Shown one piece after another: positions 22,592 to 25,562 of a stretch of DNA of 33,198 nt. Every line of letters begins with the position of its first letter. Position 1 is the first letter of the stretch. Both the position numbers and the translations under genes were made by a program. Where the stretch lies: positions 1 to 33,198 of IMG/VR virus record IMGVR_UViG_3300035181_001613, one strand, 5' to 3'. The DNA comes from a virus. The notes below the pieces were generated by a model that saw only the letters and a list, made by a program, of their open reading frames with translations, made no database searches and had not been told where the DNA came from.

Positions 22592-23146
22592 TTATTTTTT
22601 AATGGGTTTAAATTCCAAAACCCACACATAAGGGTTCTTTTTCCAACTATTTTTACCGTTAATGGCCTGCCAAAGTCTTTTAAAACCACTTTGGCAAAGA
22701 CCCCACCCGGGTGCTTCGTTAATGCCCTCTTCGTGCGCAGCGTGCTCTGTTATATCCTTTAATCTTTCAACACGCACATCAATTATCTCAAGCCAAATGC
22801 GTGTGTGTTTTTTAGGCATAAAAATAGATGGCTTCCAACACCCTTTATACCATTTAATGTCGCTATCATCTAAATCAGCCTTAAAAATGTATTGCTCTTC
22901 ATCATAAAAAAATGTTTCTCTTACCCAAAGCAAATCTCCTTTTTTACCATAGGGGCAAAATGGCAAAATGTTTTCAAGCCAGTTGTGCATATCAACTACA
23001 TCTTTATAGCCGTTCAAATAAACGAATCCACTTCGCTTATCAAATTTTGGCGCAGGCTTAATAATTCTACGTGTTTGTTTTTTTCTGCCCTGCAAAATAG
23101 CTTGCACCATTGGCGTTGACATTAGTATTGGTGTTTCTTTTCTCAT
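22592..23146 (-). CDS. ASCH/PUA-like phage protein
   Basis: This 184-residue protein contains ILQGRKKQTRRIIKPAPKFD, then YGKKGDLLWVRETFFYDE, then CWKPSIFMPKKHTRIWLEI, and ends with PYVWVLEFKPIKK. This order (TRR, GDxLWVRE, KPSIFMP, WVxEF) matches a widespread phage family with an ASCH/PUA-like fold, which may bind RNA or modified nucleotides. The substrate is unknown. It lies two bases from the gene downstream of the reverse transcriptase, so it is probably co-transcribed with the DGR genes. Confidence 0.7.
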   Translation of the reverse strand: MRKETPILMSTPMVQAILQGRKKQTRRIIKPAPKFDKRSGFVYLNGYKDVVDMHNWLENILPFCPYGKKGDLLWVRETFFYDEEQYIFKADLDDSDIKWYKGCWKPSIFMPKKHTRIWLEIIDVRVERLKDITEHAAHEEGINEAPGWGLCQSGFKRLWQAINGKNSWKKNPYVWVLEFKPIKK

Positions 23147-23147
23147 T

Positions 23148-23474
23148 TTAATTAAAATAAAAGTTTTGGTTGTCTTCGGTTATAGTTACTTCTATGGGAA
23201 ACTCGATTTGTTTCTCCTGCATTTCCAAATACATTTTCTTTAAACTTTGAGAGCCCGACCATAACAAACGCTGCTCTCCGTTCAACTGTATTTGCATTGA
23301 TAATCTTTTGCCATCGCCATTCTCTTTAAAATTAGAAGGCTCAATAAGCGCCCTTTCAATTATAATGGGCCTGTTAAGCACTTTGTTTATTTTAATTTTC
23401 TCGCCTTTCAAGGCATTTGAATCAGGCCGATTTATTCCAAACTGGCTGAATTTTTTTACTACTATTTCTGTCAT
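23148..23474 (-). CDS. Small protein overlapping the reverse transcriptase gene; possible DGR accessory
   Basis: This 108-residue protein starts 53 bases inside the 3' end of the reverse transcriptase gene, in another frame, which suggests coupled translation. It is rich in beta-prone segments (KIKINKVLNRPIIIERALIE, then RLSMQIQLNGEQRLLWSGS, then FPIEVTITEDNQNFYF) and could be a small barrel that binds nucleic acid. It does not look like the helical-bundle Avd protein of the BPP-1 DGR. Similar small proteins occur in Bacteroidota phages, but I cannot name a family with certainty. Confidence 0.6.
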   Translation of the reverse strand: MTEIVVKKFSQFGINRPDSNALKGEKIKINKVLNRPIIIERALIEPSNFKENGDGKRLSMQIQLNGEQRLLWSGSQSLKKMYLEMQEKQIEFPIEVTITEDNQNFYFN

Positions 23475-24420
23475 AAATAAGTTTTTTAATTAATGTTTTA
23501 GTGTTAGCGTGCTTAGCCCAACCCATGTAAGAGTTGATTGATGAAGCGGGTTTATTTTTAGCTATTGCCCTGGCAAATTTTTGTTTAATGCGCTTTCTTA
23601 ATAGTACGTGAGTGTGGAAATACTTGTATCCAATAAAATCAATACCGCGAGCTTCTACCGGAAATACCTGATAATTTTCTTTTACATCCAGCTTTAAATT
23701 AATCTTTAAATAGTGTTTAATTTCAAATAAAAGTGCGTGTAGGTATTGTTTGTTTGGAGCAAGTACAACGATATCATCCGCATACCTGAAGTACGGCAAC
23801 TTGCCGATTTTTTCCTTTAACCAATAATCAAAAGGAGTTAAGTATAAATTAGACAGCGGCTGGCTTATATAGTTTCCTATTGGAAGTCCGGGCGCACTAT
23901 CAATTATATTATCCAAAAGCCAAAGCAAATCTTTGTCTTTAAACTTACGGCGCAGTTGAGTTTTTAAAACATCGTGGTCGATGCTTGGATAAAACTTTTT
24001 AATATCGATCTTCAGGCAATACTTAGTTCCTTCAACATCCAGTAGAGCCTTTTTTAGATTTTTATGTGCGCCGTGTATTCCCCTTTTTTTTACACAACTA
24101 TAAGTATCCGCTGTGTACATCGACATAAAAACACCCTCCAATACATTCATAATCCCATGCTGAGCGACTCTGTCAGGAAAGAAGGGTAAACGATAGACTT
24201 CTCTCGGCTTAGGGTCTGTAATAGGGAATATGGTGTATGGAGATGTTTTGTATGTTTTGGTTACTAAAAGGTTTTGAAGGTCTTTTAAATTGCTTTCACG
24301 CTCAGGCAGGTACAGTTGAACACCGTACTGATTTTTTTTACTCTTAACAGCTTTTTTTTCGGCTGCTAAAAGATTATCTGTCGAGCAGATTAATGGATAT
24401 AGGTTATTTAACCTTTTCAT
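23422..24420 (-). CDS. DGR reverse transcriptase
   Basis: I use the ATG at 24420 (332 residues); a TTG at 24435 is an alternative. Landmarks are KIDIKKFYPSID (catalytic Asp139), IGNYISQPLSNLYL (181-194), FRYADDIVVL (Asp215, Asp216), GIDFIGY (259-265) and a thumb segment YMGWAKHA. The IGNYISQ form in place of the QGxxxSP of group II intron enzymes is diagnostic of DGR reverse transcriptases. There is no maturase or endonuclease domain. The enzyme would copy RNA from the adjacent template repeat with errors at adenines, and the cDNA replaces the variable repeats of the two upstream genes. The 3' end overlaps a small downstream gene. Confidence 0.95.
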   Translation of the reverse strand: MKRLNNLYPLICSTDNLLAAEKKAVKSKKNQYGVQLYLPERESNLKDLQNLLVTKTYKTSPYTIFPITDPKPREVYRLPFFPDRVAQHGIMNVLEGVFMSMYTADTYSCVKKRGIHGAHKNLKKALLDVEGTKYCLKIDIKKFYPSIDHDVLKTQLRRKFKDKDLLWLLDNIIDSAPGLPIGNYISQPLSNLYLTPFDYWLKEKIGKLPYFRYADDIVVLAPNKQYLHALLFEIKHYLKINLKLDVKENYQVFPVEARGIDFIGYKYFHTHVLLRKRIKQKFARAIAKNKPASSINSYMGWAKHANTKTLIKKLIYDRNSSKKIQPVWNKSA

Positions 24421-24600
24421 ATTCCTTGTTTTCAAAGATTGCCTTCGCTTAAGCTACCAACACTCTTTTTTTATTAGTTCATTTTTTGCCATGTCGGCAA
24501 GGTTTGCACTGTTTAAAGATTATCTAAACAAGTTGCGAGCTGACGTTCGAGTTCGAGTTCCAGTTGTCGTAGTTCGCATCGTCGATACGACCGCCTGAAG
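24421..24600 (-). ncRNA. Template-repeat RNA with 3' spacer (DGR)
   Basis: This stretch between target gene 1 and the reverse transcriptase is non-coding and would be transcribed in the minus direction as the TR followed by a 109-base spacer. The spacer contains a hairpin TTGCC (24486-24490) / GGCAA (24496-24500) and an imperfect palindrome at 24511-24529 directly after the TR. In the BPP-1 element a spacer in this position is needed to prime and fold the template RNA. The exact RNA ends are not visible. Confidence 0.65.
24530..24600 (-). repeat. DGR template repeat (TR)
   Basis: In the minus direction the TR aligns without gaps to two variable repeats. In the frame used by the targets it would read GGRIDDANYDN then WNSNSNVSSQL, with five AAC codons, one TAC and several GAC codons. 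A TAG follows two codons later, and no start precedes it, so it is not a gene. In the 66-base core (24532-24597) there are 19 T on the plus strand (A in coding sense), and all differences from the VRs fall on them. Confidence 0.95.
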
Positions 24601-24644
24601 AACAACACACCCTCAGCCCAAACAATGCACAACCTTATTCCGGT

Positions 24645-25046
24645 TTAATTCAAGTGCCAGTCTTCGTGATATGCTTTGAACGTTTTATAAAAATGTTCGA
24701 GCTGTTCGATTGTCGGGAAGACAAGGAGCGAGCCGACGTCCGAGTCCGAGTCCCAGCAGTCGAAGTCCGCATCGACGAAACGACCGCCCGAAGGTTTGTC
24801 CTTAGTTCCTGCTATCCAAACTCGCAGAGCCCATTTGGGTTTACCATCCGTCCAATCCGGTTGCCACACTTTGCCGTTTTCATCTGTGTTTATGGCTCTT
24901 GCGCCTACAGCCAAAACAAAATCTGCTTTATCTCTTTTTTTGTACCATTCCGGTGAGCCTTCAAAACTTGGCAACTTATCGAAGTCAAGCCCACAACGTT
25001 CAAACGCTGTTTTTTCATCTGTTACTGTTTCCCAGTGATTTTTCAT
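24645..25046 (-). CDS. DGR target protein 1
   Basis: This 133-residue protein carries variable repeat 1 at residues 86-107 (GGRFVDADFDCW, then DSDSDVGSLL) and ends with a 26-residue helix-prone tail. Before the VR it has PDWTDGKPKWALRVWIAG, shared in outline with target protein 2. I see no signal peptide or membrane segment. DGR targets usually display variable residues on a rigid, often C-type-lectin-like, scaffold to bind diverse ligands. Small early-region targets with a VGSxL motif occur in Bacteroidota phages to my knowledge, but their ligands are not known to me. The gene lies 44 bases upstream of the TR. Confidence 0.85.
   Translation of the reverse strand: MKNHWETVTDEKTAFERCGLDFDKLPSFEGSPEWYKKRDKADFVLAVGARAINTDENGKVWQPDWTDGKPKWALRVWIAGTKDKPSGGRFVDADFDCWDSDSDVGSLLVFPTIEQLEHFYKTFKAYHEDWHLN
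24722..24793 (-). repeat. DGR variable repeat 1 (VR1)
   Basis: VR1 aligns to the TR with a constant offset of 193 bases. Over the core, 13 of 66 positions differ, all at plus-strand T of the TR (A in coding sense). Six TR T positions are unchanged. The amino-acid changes relative to the TR include Asn to Asp or Cys, Tyr to Phe and Asp to Val. Confidence 0.95.
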
Positions 25047-25067
25047 GTTTTTTGTTTTTTATGATTA

Positions 25068-25562
25068 TTAAATTTTTGCTATTACCCACCCTTCAAAAGC
25101 TTCAGGGAATTTTTTGAAAGCATCGCGTGCGTTCTCTTCGCTCAAAAACGTAAGGAGCGAGCCGACGTACGAGTGCGAGAGCCAGCGGACGCAGTCCGCA
25201 GCGCCGACACGACCGCCCGTCATGTCAAATAAAATATTCCATTTAGGCTCAGACGAGTTATCCCAGTCCGGCAACTTCCCTTCGTTGTATGCTTTTACCA
25301 CTAATGCAGTTAGCGCAAATTTTGCTGCGGCTTTAATTAATAGACTTGTGCCATTGTAATTAACAAAGTCAATTTCTGCCTGTGTGGGTTTGGTTAAATC
25401 AAAAATATCGTCAAGGCCATTGATTCGCTCTCTGATATTTATAGGCATTGCCATTTTTGGTTTAAACACATCAGGAAACAATGCTTCTAACATTTTTTTA
25501 CCCGATTGGTCTGCGGCTTGGTAGGCTTTTTCCGCATCTGCCTTTTTGATGTTTACATCCAT
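25068..25562 (-). CDS. DGR target protein 2
   Basis: This 164-residue protein is a longer paralogue of target protein 1. The N-terminal 60 residues are helical (KKADAEKAYQAADQSGKK). The middle has a hydrophobic helix (LIKAAAKFALTALVVKAY), then PDWDNSSEPKWNILFDM. Variable repeat 2 occupies residues 116-136 (GGRVGAADCVRW, then LSHSYVGSLL), followed by a 28-residue tail. The last 85 residues parallel those of target 1, showing gene duplication within the element. Target 1 starts 21 bases downstream, so the two are co-transcribed. No export signal is visible. Confidence 0.85.
   Translation of the reverse strand: MDVNIKKADAEKAYQAADQSGKKMLEALFPDVFKPKMAMPINIRERINGLDDIFDLTKPTQAEIDFVNYNGTSLLIKAAAKFALTALVVKAYNEGKLPDWDNSSEPKWNILFDMTGGRVGAADCVRWLSHSYVGSLLTFLSEENARDAFKKFPEAFEGWVIAKI
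25152..25219 (-). repeat. DGR variable repeat 2 (VR2)
   Basis: VR2 aligns to the TR with a constant offset of 622 bases. Over the core, 16 of 66 positions differ, all at plus-strand T of the TR. Only three TR T positions are unchanged. VR1 and VR2 differ from each other at ten positions, again all at TR adenines, which shows independent mutagenic events. Confidence 0.95.

Follow-up and report, generated by a model that had tools for sequence, protein, structure and literature searches.

A diversity-generating retroelement with two small paralogous targets and a candidate accessory gene in a Mu-like Bacteroidota phage

Most of the phage targets of diversity-generating retroelements (DGRs) studied so far are host-attachment proteins (PMC8144416). 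Here we describe a DGR cassette whose targets are of another kind. It lies in the IMG/VR virus record IMGVR_UViG_3300035181_001613, the whole of which (33,198 bases, positions 1 to 33,198) is called the window below. All parts of the cassette are on the minus strand, in the order target A, target B, template repeat (TR), reverse transcriptase (RT), and then a gene that we call acc:

25068–25562, minus strand: target A, 164 aa, of the PHROG 11581 family (E 2.9e-6); AlphaFold2 (AF2) model with a predicted local distance difference test score (pLDDT) of 84.5
25152–25219, minus strand: variable repeat A (VR_A), 68 nt; the TR/VR comparison gives 16 mismatches to the TR, all at TR adenines
24645–25046, minus strand: target B, 133 aa, a paralogue of target A that contains VR_B; aligned with the family
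24721–24793, minus strand: VR_B, 73 nt; the TR/VR comparison gives 13 mismatches to the TR, all at TR adenines
24723–24737, minus strand: 3′ block of VR_B, like the initiation of mutagenic homing (IMH/IMH*) elements; the same as the VR_A block at 25152–25166, with three A differences from the TR at 24530–24544
24528–24600, minus strand: TR, non-coding, 73 nt with 19 A, from repeat comparison
24426–24504, minus strand: structured TR-RT spacer RNA, like Rfam RT-17 at a sub-threshold score (33.1 bits against a cut-off of 40.4, E 1.7e-4)
23422–24420, minus strand: DGR RT (RVT_1, E 5.5e-15; PHROG 1423, E 3.4e-112; PDB 8ub7, E 2e-39; phylogenetic tree)
23148–23474, minus strand: acc, candidate DGR accessory gene, 108 aa, overlapping the 3′ end of the RT gene by 53 nt; model with a barrel like the oligonucleotide/oligosaccharide-binding (OB) fold

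The first-pass annotation of this DNA had placed an RT, a TR and two genes with VRs here, tightly spaced and in one orientation. That layout and its coordinates stand; the acc gene overlapping the RT end and the structured spacer RNA, neither of which it had listed, are added.

In the repeats, every mismatch falls on an adenine of the TR: 16 of 16 for VR_A (hypergeometric P 7e-13) and, at the TR's 19 A, 13 of 13 for VR_B (P 3e-10). Pooled, this makes 29 of 29 at A and none elsewhere, the P values being the chance of an A-only pattern if mismatches were random over the repeat. The TR adenines are mostly in codon positions 1 and 2, and A changes cannot turn any TR codon into a stop. Both VRs lie inside intact target open reading frames (ORFs), and the TR is non-coding and close to the RT, an arrangement characteristic of DGRs; the earlier claim of a non-coding TR and two genes with VRs is upheld. 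VR_A and VR_B share a 3′ block, GTCGGCTCGCTCCTT, of which the TR counterpart is GTCAGCTCGCAACTT, three A being different. The VRs accordingly carry an IMH/IMH*-type 3′ block unlike the TR, with a putative role in priming. The change from 'VSS' in the TR to 'VGS' in the VR recurs in nearly all small-target relatives. A scan of the whole window found no VR beyond these two.

The RT carries the motifs IGNYISQ and YADD. Its ORF is open up to a TTG at 24435, and the ATG at 24420 is probably the start instead, because the RTs of relatives begin MKR... Its best solved relative is PDB 8ub7 (title given only as 'Reverse transcriptase'), which we take to be the BPP-1 bRT; the match has an E of 2e-39, and the best group II intron RT reaches only 3e-16. 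In an IQ-TREE phylogeny of 64 RTs, where the outgroups were group II RTs and two unclassified RTs with no verified retron among them, the window RT falls within a 20-row clade consisting solely of small-target DGR RTs (support 100/99). Group II RTs lie outside this clade, and one of the unclassified outgroup RTs groups with BalMu-1 beside BPP-1, on a long branch. Three small-target RTs of a Bacteroidales type form a second group, and with two groups in the tree the small-target habit needs two changes. The closest named RTs are those of crAss-like phages (about 51% identity), and the Hankyphage RT is 34.6% identical; judged from its sequence, the window RT is not of the Hankyphage type. The first-pass annotation had noted the two motifs in the enzyme, had read the locus as a DGR and had named a grouping of the RT with group II intron or retron enzymes as one outcome that would tell against it. 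PHROG 1423, the PDB ranking and the tree all agree with a DGR RT, and the enzyme groups with the DGR clade at 100/99.

The spacer between TR and RT matches Rfam RT-17 and RT-14 (RF03020, RF02921), both below the curated cut-off. The spacer of a relative (L008) exceeds the RT-17 curated threshold, that of Hankyphage matches RT-3, and that of BPP-1 matches Phage_DGR. In an alignment of 29 sequences, nine of nine predicted consensus pairs have at least one compensatory change. As the alignment reads, the spacer holds an RT-17-like covarying RNA. The Rfam titles of RT-17 and RT-14 name only an RT, whereas the element is placed here between the TR and the RT of a DGR. It could be argued that the RT is a retron or group II intron enzyme beside coincidental repeats, since its best NCBIfam match is a group II RT model (108 of 300 bits, far below the cut-off). 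The A-specific repeats (P<1e-9), the DGR-type spacer RNA, the tree and the PDB ranking refute this, and we give it practically no chance. The DGR identity of the element is well supported.

The acc family corresponds to PHROG 19665 in relatives and has no Pfam match. Its AF2 model (pLDDT 89.7) shows an OB-like barrel. Most complete small-target cassettes have acc overlapping the end of the RT gene, often by 13–16 nt, and in many tail-targeting relatives it lies between target and TR. In a survey of two samples, with 395 Bacteroidota genomes in total, acc was found in 12 different genomes, and in 12 of 12 it was beside or fused to a DGR RT; A-specific repeats were seen in these genomes except in two short fragments (L161 and L162). 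In the first sample, the six genomes with acc were exactly the six best RT matches. The family is present in all five cultured phage records having a small target. Fusions of acc with the RT occur in Hankyphage, BT-TP2 and the genomes G466 and G570, the C-terminus of the Hankyphage RT (residues 327–428) being an acc domain (E 3e-23). In the small-target loci examined, BPP-1 Avd had no relative at E<=0.1, a search that a divergent Avd could escape. No description of acc was found in the open-access papers searched, a set without the 2018 NAR survey. We infer that acc is a candidate new DGR accessory, working with the RT in retrohoming.

Alternatively, acc may be an ordinary phage single-stranded DNA-binding protein that merely neighbours DGRs. 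The OB-like model would suit such a protein, and recombination genes are found close to small-target cassettes. Against this, acc appeared in 12 of the 395 genomes, each time next to a DGR RT or joined to one; it is fused to the RT in the four cases named above, and it is kept beside DGRs with lectin-type tail targets as well. We consider this alternative quite improbable. As a separate observation, genes of the DUF4376 type adjoin tail-targeting RTs.

The phage itself appears to be of the Mu-like transposable type. A transposase (PHROG 310, E 1.4e-38) and an AAA transposition protein (PHROG 296, E 9e-41) are encoded at 29.8–33.0 kb, and terminase, portal, major head and tape-measure genes at 7–19.6 kb; the DGR has the transposition genes on one side and the structural half on the other. 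A related transposase is also encoded on the record of one relative (L003). The Mu-like Bacteroidota phage of the first-pass annotation, with two small paralogous targets in its early region, is thereby borne out. The neighbours of 12 small-target loci are mostly of DNA helicase, RecT, RecE and endonuclease families, and no head or tail structural family is among their 25 commonest neighbour families. A PHROG 874 protein adjoins the window cassette (22592–23146, minus strand); since two genes adjoining other small-target cassettes also match this family, it may be a recurrent neighbour.

The tandem small-target cassette recurs in Flavobacterium and Paludibacter genomes and in many viral contigs, in a recurrent order: a long target (about 150–165 aa), a shorter target of about 125 aa, in some cases a third target, a TR of 65–89 nt, and the RT. 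Variation between near-identical relatives lies almost entirely at the TR-adenine positions of their VRs. The loci L086 and L089, compared over 6,486 nt, differ at 12 positions. Of these, 11 fall in the VR of a third target, which lies 4.8 kb from the RT; its mismatches to the TR are at A in 15 of 15 and 10 of 10 cases. Between L071 and L073, the differing sites are 24 of 38 at VR positions that correspond to a TR adenine, 0 of 114 at other VR positions and 48 of 1522 elsewhere. From such comparisons the cassette type is active in relatives. For the window's phage, the intact ORFs and the absence of any non-A mismatch imply recent activity. A decaying, inactive remnant is another conceivable reading of the cassette, but all ORFs are open, 29 of 29 mismatches are at A and VR variation is fresh in relatives of the cassette; we regard decay as very improbable. 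Two further tandem small-target pairs (L091 and L096) have no RT in the fetched DNA. The first VR of L091 differs from the TR of L084 only at A (16 of 16), which suggests that its RT was lost or is distant. In L069 (3240–3838) a target has two VR copies 113 nt apart and a broken reading frame, apparently from a VR duplication within the target.

What the mutator acts upon is a family of small proteins. Target A and the targets of relatives match PHROG 11581 (function unknown), and target B has no PHROG match; a phmmer comparison nevertheless shows significant similarity between the two (E about 2e-5), in agreement with the paralogy first proposed. A tblastn search with target A against phage records gave no match, and the diverse target alignments have no stretch conserved enough for degenerate patterns. 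The target A model is helical, with a beta-hairpin and a C-terminal helix, and the VR within it has a pLDDT of only about 68–77.

A profile comparison (hhalign) of small targets with the tail targets of related DGRs gives an E of 2e-7, limited to some 31 VR columns. The VR alone gives 2.8e-10 (0.26 when reversed; 0.014 for the best of 20 column shuffles), and with the VR removed the E is 0.31. Because the match vanishes without the VR, only the VR peptide is common with lectin-type targets: by this comparison it is homologous to the C-type-lectin VR, and the scaffold is not detectably so. The small targets also have about 25–30 residues after the VR, against about 4–6 in most tail targets. We considered whether the giant tail target of Hankyphage or BT-TP2 contains the small target as a domain and rejected this, the match being confined to the VR part. 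By eye, with no predictor run, the small targets have no obvious signal peptide or membrane segment. Taken from their sequences and surroundings, the targets are one family of small, non-virion-like proteins among DNA-metabolism genes.

Members of the family can also be reached over a distance. In the genome G308, a target 10 kb from its DGR has 15 of 15 mismatches at A. In three cultured phages, comparison of repeats indicates that one DGR serves both a tail fibre and a distant small-protein homologue. In Versailles, the tail VR has 12 of 13 mismatches at A and an early small gene, about 43 kb off in the record, 14 of 14. In BT-TP2, the counts are 14 of 14 for the tail VR and 13 of 13 for a small gene (PQ571279.1; L061:4911–5276 and L163:1–500). 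The latter is unannotated because it spans the ends of the linear record, which repeat about 140 nt of it; that it is truncated was rejected, since the gene continues across the ends. In LoVEphage, the tail VR has 13 of 14 at A; for a small gene that lies some 14 kb away from the RT the count is 18 of 18 over 105 nt, and the VR of the small gene is hypervariable among five near-identical phages. The RT coding region of LoVEphage (MW660583; L179:1065–2608), PV4-TP1 (L180) and BI-TP1 is in three overlapping frames, yet the VRs are hypervariable; the split may reflect frameshifting, recoding or recent decay. In the genome G353 (L111:4836–5576), a small-target homologue with an extra C-terminal part of about 120 aa lies 40 kb from a tail-targeting DGR.

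Sharing of a TR between tail fibre and small protein bears on two other accounts of the targets. In one, the small targets would be part of the virion or surface (minor tail tips or adhesins) and would serve receptor binding. The shared TR in three cultured phages, the homology of the VR peptide to the lectin-type tail VR (hhalign E 2e-7) and one homologue annotated as 'tail protein' speak for it. That homologue, WAK79127 of Versailles (L164:1405–1986), sits between NinB and a replisome organizer, and its name probably derives from the shared VR peptide. The account is at odds with targets encoded among replication and recombination genes, with the lack, by eye, of an obvious signal peptide or membrane segment, and with a tail-target similarity that is lost once the VR is removed (E 0.31). 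We consider it unlikely. In the other account, the small proteins would provide superinfection exclusion or prophage immunity, recognizing incoming related phages or masking receptors from inside. It fits the occurrence of small targets in temperate phages and prophages as well as the TR common to tail fibre and small target in the three phages, but no membrane anchor was seen by eye; it seems to us rather unlikely, if somewhat less so than a virion role.

We prefer the view that this DGR, of Bacteroidota-phage lineage, very probably uses one short TR for adenine-specific mutagenic retrohoming into two small paralogous early proteins, whose variable segments are thereby rewritten. The A-only TR/VR differences and the DGR clade of the RT sustain the first-pass proposal of a DGR diversifying two small proteins. 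In the mechanism that we envisage, the TR-spacer RNA would be bound by the RT and the OB-like acc, the latter acting on cDNA or RNA. A-mutagenized cDNA would be made and would replace each of the two VRs as far as the conserved 3′ block. The small proteins would then act inside the infected cell by binding a variable host protein, probably one of defence, with the specificity carried by the variable loop and the two to three paralogues serving as parallel binders. The function of the targets is the weakest step of this explanation. Counter-defence or host-protein binding is favoured because it agrees with the location of the targets in the early region and with a 2025 report on gut prophages: in four species, a second, RT-distal VR lies near counter-defence genes, e.g., a methyltransferase (PMC12629997), in genes that may or may not be of the present family. 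We put this function forward tentatively.

Several results weigh against our view. Searching the target sequences against Pfam, NCBIfam and the PDB brought no informative match. A Foldseek search with the target model returned neither a solved relative at E<1 nor a lectin at E<=10, the VR being modelled at low confidence, and the BFVD matches of the model are uncharacterized phage proteins only. Gene context and AF2 model are both compatible with a virion or surface role. The PDB matches of acc, some of them OB-containing proteins, are weak (best E 0.048), for which reason nucleic-acid binding by acc is only a guess. Finally, no near-identical relative of the window was found in the collections searched.

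More broadly, a branch of DGRs may have switched from tail fibres to intracellular counter-defence or host takeover, with tandem small early binders, one short TR and an OB-fold accessory of its own replacing Avd, RT-fused in Hankyphage; we hold this possible without committing to it. What has been found suggests that phages use the DGR mutator not only for host attachment but also within the cell. The window cassette type devotes its mutator only to small early proteins, whereas cultured Bacteroides phages hit the same family plus a tail fibre. As the cultured phages carry the same target family, phage hypermutation of intracellular effectors is testable in existing strains. By the same token, acc is a concrete candidate for the replacement of Avd in Avd-less DGRs, including that of Hankyphage, and hence for the cDNA-to-target step.

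Among known systems, the BPP-1 DGR (brt, avd, mtd) resembles that of the window in its A-specific TR/VR differences, RT superfamily, IMH-like 3′ block and structured spacer RNA. It targets one tail protein, whereas the window DGR targets two small early proteins, has a short TR, and has the OB-like acc instead of a detectable Avd. Hankyphage p00 is likewise a Mu-like Bacteroidota phage with a DGR and an acc domain (PMC6199706, PMC12135933), and its DGR is demonstrably active (PMC12135933). Its acc is fused to the RT and its target is a giant lectin-tipped tail protein, whereas the window acc is separate and the targets small; no full homologue of the small targets was found in Hankyphage. The crAss-like DGRs (LMMB, PMC7290462; cr55_1 and others) have the closest named RTs and share the order target, TR, RT; Avd is reported to be absent from them. 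They diversify a tail-collar fibre (about 480 aa, with a VR of some 115 nt), in contrast to the small targets of the window. An acc domain was found neither in the LMMB and cr55_1 RTs nor in the cr55_1 stretch, and many IMG/VR loci of the crAss-like-related RT lineage have acc between target and TR. Versailles, BT-TP2 and LoVEphage come with a member of the small-target family, an A-specific VR and acc; unlike in the window, where only small tandem targets are served, the same TR (107–118 nt) also hits a tail fibre. With no detectable Avd and no demonstrable lectin fold, the window DGR is set apart from these systems by its target class, its short TR, its tandem targets and acc.

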